NCBI GenBank assembly: GCA_027459625.1
Contig: DAIDHP010000025.1
Span: 1-56,558, forward strand
Source: Chthonomonadales bacterium
GTDB taxonomy: Bacteria; Armatimonadota; Chthonomonadetes; Chthonomonadales; CAJBBX01
Direction: 5' to 3'
DNA length: 56,558 nt
Of this stretch, positions 52 through 28,326 are shown in pieces (positions within the stretch are counted from its first letter, which is position 1; each line of letters begins with the position of its first letter). The position numbers and the translations under genes were made by a program. A model generated the notes under the pieces. The model made no database searches. It had not been told where the DNA came from and worked only from the letters and a program-made list of their open reading frames with translations.

Positions 52-108
52 TCAAAAAATACTCAGCGTTTCTCCGCTCCTCAGCGTACTCCGCGTTGAG
101 CCGTTATA
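52..108 (-). repeat. Partial copy of the dispersed inverted-repeat element (copy D)
   Basis: Read on the minus strand this carries the same arm (AACGGCTCAACGCGGAG, then a GCGGAGAAACGC stretch) that begins the intergenic elements near 23.4, 24.6 and 26.2 kb. Only one arm is recognisable; the rest may be diverged or lie beyond the window edge. It ends about 9 bp before the start codon of the first gene, so that gene's leader is made largely of repeat. Confidence 0.6.
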
Positions 109-117
109 AAGAAAAAA

Positions 118-4809: not shown

Positions 4810-5036
4810 ATGAATACATCTATGAACGACACCCTAAAATCAGCATCGTCACCCCCTCCTACAACCAAGCGGAGTATCTGGAGAAGACCATCCTCTCCGT
4901 CCTCAACCAACGCTACCCCAACTTGGAATACACCATCGTGGATGGAGACAGCACGGACGGGAGCGTGGATATCATCATCCGGAAATATGAGGATAGGCCA
5001 GCATGGTGGGTGGGTAAGAGGGATGGGGGGCACGGC
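4810..5036 (+). pseudogene. Glycosyltransferase family 2, N-terminal fragment (frameshifted and truncated)
   Basis: Encodes only the first ~70 residues of a GT2 (GT-A) enzyme: [18 protein letters not shown], then an [14 protein letters not shown] nucleotide-binding segment. The ATGs at 4810 and 4822 start in a different frame (MNTSMNDT). One missing C in the ACCCT run near 4834-4838 would restore the [12 protein letters not shown] reading seen in related starts. Homology stops at about 5030-5036, in the KRDGG motif, exactly where the REP-like repeat nest begins. The intact GT2 at 6298 has a closely similar N-terminus. The piece is GC-rich in an AT-rich setting. It is non-functional as read. 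Confidence 0.85.
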
Positions 5037-5415
5037 ACTAAAGTGACCGTGCGACGAAAACGAAACCCACTATGGAGGGTTGTGGGTGGTTCAATCCCCG
5101 AAGGGGATTTTGTGTGAAATAGCACGGGATTTTAATCCCGTGCGGCGTATGGATATAGGGGATGTTCGGCATCGCATGGAAATATCAACGCATGCCGGTA
5201 AGACGCACGGCAATAAATTGACCGTGCTAGGTTATACGAAACCCTCTATGGAGGGTTGTGGATGCTTTCAATCCCCGAAGGGGATTTTGTAATGATAGCT
5301 CGGGATTTTAATCCCGTGCCCGTGCAACGAAAAAGAAACCCTCTATGGAGGGTTGTGGATGCATCAATCCCCGGAGGGGATTTTGTGTGGAATAGCACGG
5401 AATTTGAATCCCGTG
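5027..5415 (+). repeat. REP-like palindrome nest, left of the transposase
   Basis: Three tandem, diverged copies of a ~100 bp unit lie at about 5027-5143, 5202-5319 and 5320-5415. Each complete unit holds four short hairpins in order: GCACGG...CCGTGC, CCCTCTATGGAGGG, AATCCCC...GGGGATT, and CACGGGAT...ATCCCGTG. A linker of about 60 bp (5144-5201) separates the first two units. Partner copies follow the transposase gene, as expected for REP elements mobilised by a RAYT. Confidence 0.8.
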
Positions 5416-5492
5416 AATTTGAATCCCATGAATATGAATATCGTGGATTTTTATCCGGTGAATATGGAATGAATTCCAATGTGGAGGTCGAG

Positions 5493-5909
5493 ATGCCATC
5501 CTCAAAATCATGCGTTTATATACATTATGTTTGGGCGACACATTTGAGATATCCATACATGAACGAAGAGATTCGGTTGCATATTTATGAATCAATCGCC
5601 CATTCGTGCAATGATATGGAATGCCATTTGGTCGAAATTGGAGGAACGGAGGATCATGTTCACGTTCTCGTTAGAATCAATCCTACCGCCACCATCGCAA
5701 ATCTGGCCAAACGCATGAAAGGTGCGTCATCCCATCTCATTACGCACGCTTTGCATCCAAATTCCAATTTCAAATGGCAGGAATCCTATGCGGCGTTTAG
5801 CGTGGATTATCATCATCACGAGGAGTTGATATCATATATTAAAAACCAACGCCAGCACCATGTTGCGAGAAATTTCCGCTCGGAATGGGAATACGAGGAT
5901 GATGAATGA
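5493..5909 (+). CDS. IS200/RAYT-like Y1 (HUH) transposase
   Basis: A 138-residue Y1-type transposase that cuts and rejoins single-stranded DNA at hairpins. It has the HUH motif DHVHVLV (His55, His57) and a candidate nucleophile Tyr115 in SYIKNQ, followed by the QHH element. The start at 5493 has a GGAGG ribosome-binding site 5-10 bases upstream; an upstream in-frame extension is repeat-derived and unlikely to be coding. The gene is flanked on both sides by REP-like palindromes rather than single IS ends, which suits a REP-associated tyrosine transposase more than a simple IS200. The frame is intact, so it may still be active. Confidence 0.85.
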   Translation: MPSSKSCVYIHYVWATHLRYPYMNEEIRLHIYESIAHSCNDMECHLVEIGGTEDHVHVLVRINPTATIANLAKRMKGASSHLITHALHPNSNFKWQESYAAFSVDYHHHEELISYIKNQRQHHVARNFRSEWEYEDDE

Positions 5910-5911
5910 TG

Positions 5912-6236
5912 GGGCGCACGGCACTAAAGTGACCGTGCTAGGTTATACGAAACCCTCTGTGGAGGGTTGTGGATGCATCAATCCCCGGAGAGGGATTTTG
6001 TGATCGTAGCACGGGATTTGAATCCCGTGGGTATTAATCCCTAGTGGCGTATGGGTATTGGGGATGTTCGGCATCGCATGGAAATATCAACGCACGCCGA
6101 TAAGACGCACGGCAATAAATTGACCGTGCTAGGTTATATGAAACCCTCTATCAAGGGTTGTGGATACGTCAATCCCCGGAGGGGATTTTGTGGTCGCAGC
6201 AAGAGATTTTAATCCCGTGTTCAGGGATATTGACAA
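5912..6236 (+). repeat. REP-like palindrome nest, right of the transposase
   Basis: Two further copies of the four-hairpin unit (about 5912-6029 and 6103-6219), the last with a degraded final palindrome. The stretch 6030-6190 closely repeats 5135-5290, including the GGGGATGTTCGGCATCGCAT linker, giving a ~155 bp direct repeat flanking the transposase gene. Confidence 0.8.
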
Positions 6237-22436: not shown

Positions 22437-23363
22437 ATGGAATGGCACAAAGGAAAGCGCTTCGCATTCACCATCGTGGACGACACGGACGAATCGACAT
22501 ATGAAAACGTCTCGCAAATCTACGCGCATTTGCGGGATTGCGGCGTGCTCACAACCAAAACGGTATGGCCCTGCGCTCCGACCTCCTCGCCATTGACCGG
22601 CGGTGAAACCCTGGAAGATATGCGGTATCGAGAATGGGTATTGAAATTACAGGAGGAGGGCTTCGAGATCGCCTTCCACGGCGCCACAGATCACTCCTCC
22701 ACACGCGAGAACACTCTGCGCGCCCTGGCTCGCTTTCTCGATATTTTCGGGTGTTATCCGAAGCTTTACGCCACGCACAGCAGGCAGGCGGAGGGGATGT
22801 ACTGGGGGGAGCGGAGATTATCCGGGGCAAGGCGCGGGATTTACCGAACTCTTCAGCGCCTCCGCGGAGCGAACACTCTGTTTTACGGGGATGATCCCGG
22901 CAGCGAGTATTTCTGGGGGGATATCTGCAGGGAGAGGATCACCTACGTGCGCAATTTCACCTTCCCCGAGGCGAATACGCTTTCCCGCGATCCGGCGGCG
23001 CCCTATCACGACCCGTGCAAGCCGTATGTGAATTTCTGGTTCAGCGCCGGCATCGGTCGGGATTATGGTTCGCTCTGTGAACTGATATCGGAGCGCAGCC
23101 AGGATCGCCTTATGGAGGAGGGCGGACTGTGTATTGTGTATGCGCACCTCGGCAGACAGCCCGACGATGGCGGCGCGGCCGTGGCGGAGTTCAAGCGGCT
23201 GATATCGAGGCTCTCGAAACTGCCCGGGTGGTTTGCGCCGGCTTCGGAGATACTGGATCATCTGCGAGCACAACCGGGATGGAAACCGGATATCGAACCT
23301 CAGGTCCTGCGGCGGATGGAGTGGCGCTGGCTGCTGGGGAAGATAAGGGTCGGGGCGGATTAG
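22437..23363 (+). CDS. Polysaccharide-deacetylase-like protein (NodB fold family)
   Basis: A 308-residue protein. The opening GKRFAFTIVDDTDESTYENV places a DDTD motif where NodB-type deacetylases have the catalytic TFDD. FEIAFHGATDHSSTRENT gives the histidine pair expected for motif 2 (H.....H), and LYATHSRQAEGMYWGERR follows. These residues suggest a metal-dependent carbohydrate esterase that removes acetyl groups from a glycan. There is no signal peptide, so it may act in the cytoplasm. It is GC-rich, and the island's AT-rich part ends here. The dispersed inverted-repeat element begins directly after its stop codon. Confidence 0.72.
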   Translation: MEWHKGKRFAFTIVDDTDESTYENVSQIYAHLRDCGVLTTKTVWPCAPTSSPLTGGETLEDMRYREWVLKLQEEGFEIAFHGATDHSSTRENTLRALARFLDIFGCYPKLYATHSRQAEGMYWGERRLSGARRGIYRTLQRLRGANTLFYGDDPGSEYFWGDICRERITYVRNFTFPEANTLSRDPAAPYHDPCKPYVNFWFSAGIGRDYGSLCELISERSQDRLMEEGGLCIVYAHLGRQPDDGGAAVAEFKRLISRLSKLPGWFAPASEILDHLRAQPGWKPDIEPQVLRRMEWRWLLGKIRVGAD

Positions 23364-23605
23364 GGAGAACGGCGGATAAAGACGCACCGCGGAGAACGCG
23401 GAGAACGGCGGATAACTGCTCACCGCAGAGAACGCGGAGAACGCGGAGAACGGCGATTTTGGGATTTGGATTATTAGGAAGTGTAAGGATAATCAAACGG
23501 TTAGGGTTATCATAATCGTCTTAAAGACTATCCAGGTGAAACTCCAGAACTCTCTGCGTGCTCTGCGATCTCTGCGGTGCGCCTTTATCCGCCGTTGACA
23601 CCAGT
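23364..23605 (-). repeat. Inverted-repeat element, copy A (minus orientation)
   Basis: Arms rich in AACGCGGAGAACGCGGAG and GGCGGATAA words surround a unique core. On the minus strand the core reads ATAACCCTAACCGTTTGATT, nearly the same as the core of copy C. The left arm is expanded by extra copies of its short words. It starts directly after the stop codon of the deacetylase-like gene. Confidence 0.8.
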
Positions 23606-23662
23606 CATTTATCCAAAAAAAATATCAAGCCGGCAGCATTAAATCCGAAAAACCGGCATTTT

Positions 23663-23678
23663 TGGCATGCATCATGCA
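23663..23678 (+). promoter_or_regulatory. Sigma-54-like promoter of the first PEP-CTERM gene
   Basis: TGGCATG, four bases, then ATGCA: GG and GC are exactly ten bases apart, as sigma-54 (RpoN) requires. The match to TGGCACR-N4-TTGCW has two mismatches. It lies about 60 bp before the ATG. PEP-CTERM genes in known exosortase systems are often under sigma-54 control, which supports the call. Confidence 0.6.
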
Positions 23679-23738
23679 GTTATAGAAAATAAACCCTATA
23701 ATCGTTTCAAGTTGGTAATTTTCAAAAGGAGAGAAACA

Positions 23739-24446
23739 ATGACCTCGAATAAACCATTCCGCGTCTTAGCAGCGTTCGCGGTCGTATTGTTGATATTAAG
23801 CCTTGGGGGGGTGCAAGCTCTCGGGCAGAGTTACAGCAGTTACAACACGTTGTTTTCCGGATTCACCGTTACTCAAACAACGAATTCGTCGGAACAGCCG
23901 ACTTTCGGCTTCAGTTCGAATTCAAATCAGGTGACCATCAATGGCGCCTCCTACACTCTGAACGACATTAGCTCCTTTGCGTTATTGTATTCCGCCGCGC
24001 CAACAACAAAGCCAGTTCAGATACCAACTTCGTATATTGGAAATTACGAAGCAGATAGTTCAACCACATGGCAATCGTTTTCTACTGTCTACAAAGTCGA
24101 CAAACAACAAGTGTTTGGCTGGGCATCTCCAAATTCCGGCACTTTACAACCAGGGGACATAGAGCCGTCAAATACTGGTTTCTCCACCGGGCAGGTTTTT
24201 AGCTTTGCTTCGTCTCCTCTACCTTCAGGATATAATTATGGTTTCGATATATCCTTGAAAGGTACTCCTGGTGCTGCGAGTCCTTTTGGTGGTTCTTTTG
24301 ATACTTCAGGGAATTCAACCGGAAGGGTGACACTTACACAGCCCGTGCCCGAACCGCCCTTCCTCCAGTTGGGTGTTCTTCTGGCGTGCGCAGGGCTGAT
24401 GGGGTTATGGAGGATTCGCCTCGCTCGCGTTGCAGCGTGTGTTTGA
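23739..24446 (+). CDS. Secreted PEP-CTERM sorting-domain protein
   Basis: A 235-residue exported protein. It begins with a signal peptide (FRVLAAFAVVLLILSLGGV, cleavage probably after QALGQ). The C-terminal 33 residues form a PEP-CTERM signal: VPEPP, a hydrophobic helix, then the basic WRIRLAR. Exosortase is known to process such signals and release or anchor the protein in the exopolysaccharide matrix. No exosortase gene is in the window. The middle is Ser/Thr/Gly-rich without a known domain. The ATG has an AAAAGGAGAG ribosome-binding site, so it is preferred over the upstream frame extension. Confidence 0.87.
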   Translation: MTSNKPFRVLAAFAVVLLILSLGGVQALGQSYSSYNTLFSGFTVTQTTNSSEQPTFGFSSNSNQVTINGASYTLNDISSFALLYSAAPTTKPVQIPTSYIGNYEADSSTTWQSFSTVYKVDKQQVFGWASPNSGTLQPGDIEPSNTGFSTGQVFSFASSPLPSGYNYGFDISLKGTPGAASPFGGSFDTSGNSTGRVTLTQPVPEPPFLQLGVLLACAGLMGLWRIRLARVAACV

Positions 24447-24550
24447 GCATAGATCATTTTTCGCCAGAATAAACGGGGGGCTGGGGAAGGCGTCTGAACC
24501 CTCGCCCCCGTTTCCTCGTAAAGTTTTTTCTGCACAGCGTTATAATGACT

Positions 24551-24775
24551 GTTAACGGCTCCATGCGGAGCACGGCGGATAACGGCTCAACGCGGAGCAC
24601 GCAGAGGTGCGGAGAAACACAGAGAGATTTAGAGTTTTACTTGGACAGTCTTTTGATGGATTATTATAACTTTCAGCGTTTGACATTCCTGGAGCTTCTC
24701 TGAAAGCCAAATTACAATATCGCCGTTCTCCGCGCCTCCGCGCACTTTGCGTTGCGTCTTTTTCTGCTTTTTGTG
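24551..24775 (+). repeat. Inverted-repeat element, copy B
   Basis: The left arm (AACGGCTCCATGCGGAGCAC, then AACGCGGAGCACGCAGAGG) and right arm (GCCGTTCTCCGCGCCTCCGC) surround a core with TTATAACTTTCAGCGTTTGA, the diverged equivalent of the copy A and C core. It lies ~100 bp after the first PEP-CTERM gene. Its right end (GCTTTTTGTGGTTGGCG) joins directly to the ~120 bp tandem repeats. Confidence 0.8.
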
Positions 24776-25165
24776 GTTGGCGAAAGTCACCCGGTCACTT
24801 CGTTCCCGGCTCGGATTAATGTTTCCCCAATCCTGTCCATCCTTAAAATCCCTTAATCGTGTTCCGAATCCAAGCCCTGAATCCCGCCACCGGTGTCGAT
24901 AGCCGAAACATACCCGGTCACTTCGTTCCCGGTTAGGATTAATGTTTCCCAATCCTGTCCATCCTTAAAATCCCTTAATCGTGTTCTGATCCCAAACCCT
25001 TAATTCCGCTGCCGGTGTAGATATCCGAAGGTTACCCGGTCACTTCGTTCCCGGTTAGGATAGGCCCCATCCTGACCATCCTTATATCCTTTCATCGTGT
25101 TCAGACCCTCCCCATCCTGTCCATCCTTAAAAATCCTTTCATCGTGATCCAAACCCAAAACCCGG
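24776..25165 (+). repeat. ~120 bp tandem repeats, three copies
   Basis: Each unit carries CCGGTCACTTCGTTCCCGG, then a CCATCCTGTCCATCCTTAAA-type segment, a CATCGTGTTC stretch and a variable joint with CCGGTGTAGATA. The marker word occurs at 24790, 24913 and 25035, giving 122-123 bp spacing. The last unit is partial. Confidence 0.85.
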
Positions 25166-25216
25166 TATCCGCAAACGTACCGGATTTAGGGGGAAACGGT
25201 GCAATAAGGCAATTGT

Positions 25217-25232
25217 TGGTATGGGTTTTGTA
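25217..25232 (+). promoter_or_regulatory. Weak sigma-54-like site upstream of the second PEP-CTERM gene
   Basis: TGGTATG, four bases, TTGTA. The GG is in place but the -12 GC reads GT, so this is a weaker match than the site at 23663. It would give a leader of about 150 bases. Confidence 0.3.
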
Positions 25233-25389
25233 CTAATAGAAATCAGGAGAGATTGCATTCCCGCCTGAATTTTCCGTCTGCAAGCGAATGTCGCGCGCTC
25301 GGATGCAGGTAAAAGAGTTCGAAACGCCAAGCGGAGTTCAAGCACGGAGATGCAAGCCATCTATCAAATAACCTTGCAAGGAGAAGTGG

Positions 25390-26157
25390 ATGTTAAAAAA
25401 AGCTTTAATGTTCGGGGTGTTGTTTGCGCTCGCGCTCGTCGCGGTTCATCCTTCCGACGCTGCGACGGTTGATGTCACCTCCGCCCTTGGGTTGCACAAC
25501 ACCGGCGAATCCGCAACCATCAATGGGACTGCGATGGACGCCAATTACACGTATGGTTACACAGCGGGGGATACTGTCGTCGGTGGGGTCGCGCCGACGA
25601 GTCTGAGCGATTTCGCGATGTCGGGCAGCCCCTACATCACTAACGCGGGGCAATTCCCCATCAGCACGCATAACTGGTATCCGGATAGCTCGAACGGATC
25701 TTCGAACTGGATTTCGCCTCAGTCCGGTTATGACAATAGTCAGACGAGCCCGGCGGGGTATTACGCGTATGTCACCACGCTAACTCTTCCAAACGCCGCG
25801 CCGGCGGGGCTTACCTTCAGCTTTAGCGGTGATTGGGCGACGGATAATCTAGGCGAGGGGATTTGGTTGAACGGAACCATGATACCCGGCAGCGGAATGG
25901 GGACAGGCAACCTGAATTCGGCGAATTTCCAGCAGTTGCACGGTTTTTCGTTCGACACTCCGCTGAACTACGGTCAGAATACGCTCGCTTTCATCGTGTA
26001 TAACACCCCGTACAACGGCGCGAACCCAACCGGTCTGAGGGTCGCGAACTTGGATGTCACGACCACGCAGCCGGTTCCGGAGCCTGGCGTGATGCAACTC
26101 CTCGGCACCTTGTTCTGTTCCGGGGGCGCGTTCGCGTTGCGACGTCGCAGAGCGTAG
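25390..26157 (+). CDS. Secreted PEP-CTERM sorting-domain protein
   Basis: A 255-residue exported protein. The signal peptide is KKALMFGVLFALALVAVHPSDA. The mature part is Ser/Thr/Asn/Gly-rich and ends VPEPGVMQLLGTLFCSGGAF plus ALRRRRA, a textbook PEP-CTERM signal (residues 229-255). The central WATDNLGEGIWLNGTMIPGSG resembles the carbohydrate-binding beta-sandwich segments seen in other PEP-CTERM proteins, but no named domain can be assigned. An AAGGAG ribosome-binding site lies 6-11 bases before the ATG. It is flanked on both sides by the repeat blocks. Exosortase substrate status is inferred from the tail. Confidence 0.87.
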   Translation: MLKKALMFGVLFALALVAVHPSDAATVDVTSALGLHNTGESATINGTAMDANYTYGYTAGDTVVGGVAPTSLSDFAMSGSPYITNAGQFPISTHNWYPDSSNGSSNWISPQSGYDNSQTSPAGYYAYVTTLTLPNAAPAGLTFSFSGDWATDNLGEGIWLNGTMIPGSGMGTGNLNSANFQQLHGFSFDTPLNYGQNTLAFIVYNTPYNGANPTGLRVANLDVTTTQPVPEPGVMQLLGTLFCSGGAFALRRRRA

Positions 26158-26370
26158 AACGGCGTATAACGGCGCAACGCAGAGTACGCAGAGGCGCGGA
26201 GAACCGCAGAGAATTTTAGAGTGTGACTGGGTGGTTTTTAAGTCGATGATGATAACCCTAAGCGTTTGATTATCCTTAGACTTCTCATAAAATCAAATTC
26301 TAAAATCGTCTTTCTCCGCCGTTCCCCGCGCCTTCTGCGTTGCGCCTTAGAATGCTTTTTGGCTGGCGGT
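26158..26370 (+). repeat. Inverted-repeat element, copy C
   Basis: The left arm AACGGCGTATAACGGCGCAA begins at the base next to the stop codon of the second PEP-CTERM gene. The core ATAACCCTAAGCGTTTGATT matches copy A. The right arm (TTTCTCCGCCGTTCCCCGCG) runs into GGCTGGCGG and the tandem repeats. Confidence 0.82.
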
Positions 26371-27000
26371 ACATACCCGGTCACTTCGTTCCCGGCTAGG
26401 ATAGGGGTTTCCCATCCTGCCCATCCATAAAATCCCTTCATCGTGTTCAGACCCTCCACATCCTGCCCATCCTTAAAATCCTTTCATCGTGTTCAAAACC
26501 CAGCCCTTAATTCCGCAACCGGTTTCGATAGCCTAAGGTCACCCGGTCACTTCGTTCCCGGCTCAGCTTTGCGCCTTAATGCTTTTTTGTGGTTGGCGGA
26601 AGATACCCGGTCACTTCGTTCCCGGGCGGATAGGGGTTTCCCATCCTGCCCATCCATAAAATCCCTTCATCGTGTTCAAAACCCAAACCATGAATCCCGC
26701 CACCAGTGTCGATAGGCGAAAGTCACCCGGTCACTTCGTTCCCGGTTCGGATAGGGATACCCCATCCTGTTCATCCATAAAATCCCTTCATCGTGTTCCG
26801 AAACCCAGCCCTGAATCCCGCTGCCGTGTAGATAGCCGAAACATACCCGGTCACTTCGTTCCCGGCTAGGATAGGAATTTCCCATCCTGTTCATCCTTAA
26901 AATCCTTTCATCGTGTTCCGAAACCAAAACCTGAATCCGCCACCGTGTCGATAGCCGAAAGTCACCCGGTCACTTCGTTCCCGGTTCGAATAGGGATTTG
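26371..27000 (+). repeat. ~120 bp tandem repeats, six copies
   Basis: The marker word CCGGTCACTTCGTTCCCGG occurs at 26376, 26542, 26606, 26726, 26846 and 26965. Spacing is 119-120 bp in the last part. A short insertion at about 26562-26600 repeats the right end of the inverted-repeat element, showing that the two repeat families move or expand together. No gene is seen here. Confidence 0.85.
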
Positions 27001-27093: not shown

Positions 27094-27168
27094 GTAATTC
27101 GTGTATTGTGCGTTATAACCGATAATTACGCATAGGTTTTGTTCAGGCATGCCTTTGGAGGAAAATCC

Positions 27169-28326
27169 ATGCAGAAGCCAATTTTTGCCGCGCTTAGTAT
27201 TCTGGCGTTAGGAACCTATCTTTTCGCCACACCGTCCGCCCGCGCAGACCTTCCGCCCGAAAGAGAGTTGCTGGGGGTGCGCATGTGGAGACCGGCCAGC
27301 TCCGTTTTCGCCAAGTTCGGCGCACCATCACGACAGATCAGCTCTTCCAGCTCCTCATCCAGCATGGCCATGGGCGGGATGCCCGGCATGATGGGGTCCG
27401 GAGGGGGATCCAATCCATATTCCATGATGGGTTCCAGCGGATATCCCGGTGGTCCCGGCGGCGCCAAGGGCGCCGGTGGAATCGCAAGCACCTTGAACGG
27501 CACCGGATCAACCTTGGACACCCCGGAAGAGGTGTTGCACGCCTTGGTTCTTCTCAGTCAAAACAAGAACGTTTCGCCTATCCAGACAATGGGCGGCGGC
27601 GGAATGCCTGGCTTCATGCCCGGATCGCCGATGAAGTCCATGGGCATGATGGGCTCCTCCCCTTACAGCGGGATGGGCTCTTCTCCCTACGGCGGTTCCG
27701 GTCCGTCCTCTCCTTACAGCGGGATGGGATCCTCGCCATACGGCGGTTCCGGTCCATCCTCTCCTTACGGCGGGATGGGCTCTTCGCCCTACGGCGGTTC
27801 CGGTCCGTCCTCGCCATACGGTGGTTCCGGTCCGTCCTCTCCCTACAGCGGCATGGGATCCTCGCCATACAGCGGGATGGGCGGCTCCGGCGGCATGCCC
27901 GGCATGATGGGAGGAATGGGCGGACAGCAGGTTACCGATCTGACCCCGGGGCAGACTCGCTGGTTCTACGACGGCTCTCCGGAGAAGGTGTTCACCTTCA
28001 ACAAGGACGGCAGGGTGATTGAGATCGGCGTGTTCGCAAAGACTGGCATTATCGCGGGCGTGAACGTGAAGAAGGACGAGCTTTTATTGATGAAGATCGC
28101 CTTGACGGGGAAAATGTCGGATACGCTGACATCCCGTCATATTGCGCTTGGTTCCACCATGGCGGCGGTCTACAAGGCGTATGGATGGGCTGCGCACGTC
28201 GTCACATCCGGCGATGTGGTGCTGTTGGATTATCGCGACACCGCTCACGTGGCGTTCAAATGCGATTATTTCGGCAAAAAGGTTGGATATCGAGTGACTG
28301 GAATCGTTGTATCCCTGTCCGAATAG
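27169..28326 (+). CDS. Secreted protein with Gly/Ser/Tyr/Met-rich tandem repeats (paralogue 1)
   Basis: A 385-residue exported protein of unknown function. The signal peptide is FAALSILALGTYLFATPSARA. A short N-terminal motif, ERELLGVRMWRPASSVFAKF, is followed by a long low-complexity region in which units such as GMGSSPYGGSGPSSPY recur. The last ~120 residues (WFYDGSPEKVFTFNKDGRVI onward) form a folded domain. The LLG...V..KFG.P motif recalls the repeat unit of BamE/SmpA-like envelope proteins, and RHIALGSTMAAVYKAYG in the C-terminus looks like a second such unit. That resemblance is weak. GGAGG lies 9-14 bases before the ATG. Confidence 0.8.
   Translation: MQKPIFAALSILALGTYLFATPSARADLPPERELLGVRMWRPASSVFAKFGAPSRQISSSSSSSSMAMGGMPGMMGSGGGSNPYSMMGSSGYPGGPGGAKGAGGIASTLNGTGSTLDTPEEVLHALVLLSQNKNVSPIQTMGGGGMPGFMPGSPMKSMGMMGSSPYSGMGSSPYGGSGPSSPYSGMGSSPYGGSGPSSPYGGMGSSPYGGSGPSSPYGGSGPSSPYSGMGSSPYSGMGGSGGMPGMMGGMGGQQVTDLTPGQTRWFYDGSPEKVFTFNKDGRVIEIGVFAKTGIIAGVNVKKDELLLMKIALTGKMSDTLTSRHIALGSTMAAVYKAYGWAAHVVTSGDVVLLDYRDTAHVAFKCDYFGKKVGYRVTGIVVSLSE

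Follow-up and report, generated by a model that had tools for sequence, protein, structure and literature searches.

We found that three inverted-repeat sequences in a 56,558-nucleotide stretch of DNA (the window) have arms of a type that, in many other bacteria, flanks a nuclease gene. The best explanation, to which we assign a probability of about 0.6, is that these copies (A, B and C) are old and belong, as non-coding, MITE-like members, to a class of elements that is very widespread in bacteria. The full form of this class is an arm-flanked GxxExxY gene, and its members would enter behind stop codons. No GxxExxY gene occurs in A, B, C or anywhere in the window; because none lies inside them, the three copies are non-coding relatives, not full members, of the GxxExxY element.

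Copies A, B and C in the window

The copies, their core motifs and one further arm lie at the following positions.

23368..23597, minus strand: copy A, a non-coding palindrome whose core runs opposite to those of B and C
23487..23510, minus strand: conserved core motif of copy A, ATAACCCTAACCGTTTGATTATCC
24553..24765, plus strand: copy B, the most diverged copy, starting at about 24553
26158..26347, plus strand: copy C, directly after the TAG (26155-26157) of the PEP-CTERM ORF 25390-26157
26252..26275, plus strand: conserved core motif of copy C, ATAACCCTAAGCGTTTGATTATCC
61..110 (approximate), minus strand: a further copy, seen as a single right-hand arm next to the contig start, with an ORF following at 118

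The original prediction described three inverted-repeat copies of about 220 bp with shared arms and a shared core, and our alignments agreed with this. Each of the three copies is a long, imperfect palindrome of ~190-235 bp, and all have a core in common; A aligned with C at 82% over 93 nt in opposite orientation and with B at 72% over 118 nt, A being inverted relative to both. A core pattern (ATAACCCTAANCGTTTGATTATCC, at most three mismatches) had two matches, in A and C, against an expectation of 0, and the core of B was more diverged than those of A and C. The arms are degenerate direct repeats of the 8-9-mer CGCAGAGNA, with 9 matches in the window versus 0.6 in shuffles. These are the very 'AACGCGGAG-type junk repeats' that the first reading had set aside, and they turned out to be the key to the nature of the element. 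All three copies are short, end in inverted repeats and lack coding capacity (no ORF beyond 72 amino acids), as MITEs do. Their RNA folding z-scores relative to shuffles were −9.0 for A, −5.6 for C and −2.9 for B, and no Rfam family matched them. The core, which had been expected to align beyond these copies if the element was real, was found nowhere else in the 4.5-Mb assembly; it is confined to A, B and C within 3 kb, and a search of the genome contig collection with a core 25-mer gave no match. Only the arms recur elsewhere.

The placement of the copies next to stop codons also held. C follows its stop codon with a gap of 0, A starts 4 nt past the TAG (23361-23363) of ORF 22437-23363, and B lies farther off, 106 nt past the TGA at 24444-24446 (ORF end 24446). 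We saw no copy behind the two relatives that we examined of the gene preceding A. The partial fourth copy reported before the first gene is the single arm at 61-110, which is of the subtype present on contig C41 and probably looks partial since the contig starts there. Contig C41 carries arm-type elements with other cores, one of which ends at a gene's stop codon. Since both C25 and C41 start in or near an arm-type element, we infer that copies were probably lost in assembly.

Tandem arrays of ~120 bp units (CCCGGTCACTTCGTTCCCGG and CATCCTGTCCATCCTTAAAATCC) occupy 24787-25170, after B, and 26370-27000, after C, and units like them come after an element on contig C41. When reversed, the AGGAT repeats of these arrays look similar to the arms that flank one GxxExxY gene (L399). 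Farther along, ORF 27139-28326 contains a repetitive coding stretch (27628-27911) of TCTTCGCCCTACGGCGG-type units.

Arms across bacteria and the nuclease genes between them

We scanned GTDB genomes, a sample that was not random, with an arm pattern of 24-25 specified bases and obtained at least 115 stretches. The matches listed came from records titled Planctomycetota, Verrucomicrobia, Calothrix, Nostoc, Chloroflexi, Acidobacteria, Nitrospirae, Gemmatimonadota, Saprospiraceae, several Proteobacteria and others; 57 of 85 arm matches among them had an inverted partner within 450 nt, and the cores between paired arms were unrelated from element to element. Within the window's phylum, the arm was present in 9 of 291 genomes. 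One of its genomes, G046, had 67 matches versus 2 for a control pattern, and its arms matched their own partners better than the arms of other elements (0 of 2000 permutations). In a search of plasmids, phages and E. coli, the pattern was found in four cyanobacterial plasmids only, and IMG/VR contigs held 22 stretches.

Some elements appeared to have entered others. In Nostoc calcicola (L321-L340), a short MITE bounded by the terminal repeats TTAGACCTCTTGCA..TGCAAGAGGTCTAA has a CGCAGAG arm in its interior, an apparent capture of one element by another. At three loci of G046 (L016, L026 and L030), CGCAGAG arms enclose CACGAAG-type and CGCAGATG-type arms in nested layers, as if by mutual entry.

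The gene found between such arms encodes GxxExxY (TIGR04256/PF13366), a PD-(D/E)XK nuclease of ~125 amino acids (Pfam PDDEXK_3, E value = 4e-42). Its active-site residues D72, E82, K84, Q96 and Y100 were invariant in 12 sequences; the AlphaFold model was of moderate confidence (pLDDT 72.5), and a PDB sequence search gave no match. GxxExxY ORFs were enclosed by paired arms in Deefgea (L311), Dolichospermum (L117) and G046 (C390), and in arm pairs shorter than 600 bp, including the latter two, they were the only ORFs of at least 100 amino acids that we found. In G046 and Deefgea, the coding and non-coding forms have the CGCAGAG subtype in common. In the full coding element, which measures 430-780 bp, two inverted arms composed of degenerate direct repeats of 8-10 bp enclose one GxxExxY gene.

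We collected GxxExxY genes by HMM and scored the inverted repeats around them with a cut-off of 30. Flanking repeats reached this score at 39 of 50 GxxExxY genes versus 2 of 34 other genes at the same loci, a clear inverted repeat being missing at the other 11. In the phylum set, score was the sole criterion for the first 30 genes, and some later ones were picked with arms in view; this set gave 22/28 versus 0/20 control genes. Most of the flanking repeats were built of CACAGAG, CGCAGAG, CACGAAG, CGCAAAG, CGCCAAG or CACTGATG units, and a few were of other kinds. A GxxExxY gene was present in 41 of 47 genomes picked for the CGCAGAG arm and in 68 of the 291 genomes of the window's phylum, including 7 of the 9 arm-bearing ones. 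The gene was rare in viral contigs (1) and plasmids (4); three of these five cases had a clear repeat score, and two had arms by eye. The genome of the window has one such gene.

C3:264478-264819, minus strand: GxxExxY gene between repeated ~85 bp CACGAAG-type palindromes

Coding and non-coding forms thus occur together in this genome. The CACGAAG arms of the gene differ in subtype from those of A, B and C, however, and the three copies are most plausibly relics of, or produced by, a lineage other than that of the genome's own GxxExxY element.

Arm similarity tracked protein similarity across GxxExxY genes (Mantel r = 0.40, 0 of 5000 permutations, with host phylogeny left out of the statistic). 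Proteins of the 'IVDAAY' kind had arms starting with CTCAC (8 versus 2), and those of the 'IIGAAIEVH' kind had arms starting with ACCRC (14 versus 0; subfamily versus arm end, P value = 6e-5). Because these classes were drawn after looking and 21 of 45 cases fell into neither, we give more weight to the Mantel test.

This covariation bears on whether arms and nuclease travel as one unit. They could instead be separate passengers, the arms being moved by another enzyme, such as a Y1/RAYT-like or DDE transposase, and GxxExxY being cargo. Y1 transposases are indeed common in the phylum (191/291 genomes) and one lies in the window, and the Nostoc MITE with an arm inside it has terminal repeats of its own. 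However, the Y1 gene of the window is flanked by unrelated palindromes, no ORF of comparable length other than GxxExxY was found in the short arm pairs, and the arms vary together with the GxxExxY subfamily; we consider separate passage unlikely. A RAYT as the mover of the arm elements was likewise not supported, given the unrelated repeats beside the window's Y1 gene. On both sides of that gene (5490-5909, RAYT/IS200-like; flanks 5028-6220) lie copies of another repeat family, made of CACGGGATTTTAATCCCGTG palindromes and GGAGGGTTGTGGATGC..CAATCCCCGAAGGGGATTTTG, and the whole looks like a REPtron/TIRtron.

Placement behind stop codons and age of the copies

Measuring the distance of the elements from stop codons had been proposed as a check, and class-wide inverted pairs were not placed at random. 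Of 57 usable paired elements, 46% lay within 25 nt of a neighboring stop codon, compared with 12% of random intergenic positions within the same loci (P value = 5e-10), and the median distances were 35 nt and 133 nt, respectively. Genes were defined here as long ORFs with a codon-position score, short genes were missed, and 20 of the 75 elements in the sample were spanned by an ORF. The gaps in G046 were typically 5-13 nt. Coding elements lay within 25 nt of the neighbor's stop codon in 25 of 35 cases, mostly at 1-9 nt, a figure that alone is weaker than the non-coding one because operon genes are also closely spaced; the nuclease gene mostly had the orientation of the preceding gene. For instance, a coding element sits between fabD and fabG in a Sphingomonas replicon, 7 nt past the fabD stop, and another starts 1 nt past the radA stop in a Bacteroides replicon.

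The original prediction offered two readings of this placement, insertion into terminators or use as mRNA 3' ends. The precise placement recurs in G046, in other phyla and in coding relatives. Insertion is the better reading, but the sites are directly behind stop codons and not in terminators. Insertion into terminator loops, judged by extended flank palindromes, was rejected, with the 99% level exceeded at just 3 of 52 loci. The T-rich outer end of the arms (TTTYAC before CGCAGAG) was alike on ends facing gene 3' ends and gene 5' ends, and it therefore belongs to the element or its site and is not a host U-tract; a T-run serving as host terminator was rejected on the same ground.

The copies in Deefgea are old. 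All nine tested sites were filled in two species whose flanks were ~83-98% identical, and no empty site was found among them; at one site, the second species had a longer, partly different core. A target-site duplication gave no signal in G046, and a set of 80 loci showed a slight excess, driven in part by one 30-nt repeat. We infer that the elements are mobile and that the nuclease acts on their arms.

Retention at all nine Deefgea sites would also be expected if the palindromes were functional 3' ends, selected as terminators or mRNA-stabilizing hairpins and, being symmetric, acting in both directions. Strong RNA hairpins directly after stop codons and arms matched within each element fit this as well. 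Nevertheless, a GC-rich stem followed by a U-tract, the mark of an intrinsic terminator, was not found: no U-tract follows A, and only the right arm of B directly precedes TCTTTTT. Terminator-like sites in the region were no commoner than in shuffles (6 versus 6.4), so that the second reading of the original prediction is weakly supported. Moreover, the same arms flank a nuclease gene, B lies ~100 nt from its stop codon, and the arms are patchy in the phylum (9/291), all of which makes selected 3' ends an improbable account of the copies. Improbable to a greater degree still is a purely local duplication of A, B and C within the 3-kb region, of no wider meaning: the shared core is limited to 3 kb and the same kind of array follows B and C, but the proteins before B and C are alike just at the PEP-CTERM end, A is inverted beside an unrelated gene, and the arm class crosses phyla.

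Proposed mechanism and relation to known systems

If A, B and C do belong to the GxxExxY class, the nuclease may recognize its own arms, or the cruciform formed by them, and help copy the element to positions immediately after stop codons. Entry there would do little harm, and the host operon could drive expression of the nuclease gene. Arm-only copies would have been moved in trans or would be remnants. The inserted hairpin would become part of the transcript's 3' end and might incidentally affect mRNA stability or termination. It counts against this role that a nuclease acting alone, with no transposase, would be an unusual mover.

On a wider scale, these observations could equally well reflect an unnamed minimal class of mobile elements in many phyla, with one PD-(D/E)XK nuclease gene between inverted tandem 8-10-mer arms, which inserts directly after stop codons with no known transposase and from which arm-only palindromes like A, B and C remain, or have a narrower meaning. 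The class is apparently undescribed so far: literature searches that excluded most subscription journals and all preprints yielded no relevant occurrence of the arm strings and only passing mentions of GxxExxY. If it exists, the CACAGAG, CACGAAG, CGCAGAG and CACAGATG repeats dispersed in many environmental genomes would derive from it. We found no published explanation in the literature searched for these purine-rich 8-10-mer repeats across many phyla, and their link to the nuclease family points to a likely origin. GxxExxY proteins, so far little more than a motif name, would gain a likely role, and one can now test directly whether a nuclease on its own is able to spread an element, and why this would happen after stop codons.

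Among PD-(D/E)XK nucleases, the GxxExxY model had weak similarity to Cas4 (4ic1) and Hjc (1gef), with Z scores of 6.7-7.2, below the level that identifies relatives (8). Unlike these, GxxExxY lies between inverted arms, and we saw no CRISPR or recombination context. Homing endonuclease genes consist of one free-standing small nuclease as the sole gene, and in this they resemble the coding elements. However, a homing endonuclease targets one homologous site, whereas the elements described here occupy many unrelated sites behind stop codons, have inverted arms and occur in non-coding forms.

Bacterial MITEs beside genes (YPAL/RU-2, ERIC, NEMIS and RUP) are short, non-coding, intergenic inverted repeats that can form RNA hairpins (PMC2229807, PMC3733652), and elements of the A/B/C type share these properties. 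Each of those families is restricted to one taxon or a few, whereas the arms described here are found across phyla around unrelated cores and have a coding relative with a PD-(D/E)XK nuclease. REP/RAYT and TIRtron/TIRYT systems resemble the elements in two respects: their palindromes lie mostly downstream of genes, and inverted repeats flank a small gene of the nuclease type (PMC3733652). In contrast to REP sequences, which are palindromes of 20-40 bp tagged GTAG or CGTC, A, B and C measure ~190-235 bp with untagged ends, and the elements as a whole are ~60-240 bp, also without either tag. The enzyme of those systems is a Y1 HUH tyrosine transposase encoded between the repeats; the Y1 gene of the window is flanked by other repeats, and the protein encoded between the arms is a PD-(D/E)XK nuclease.
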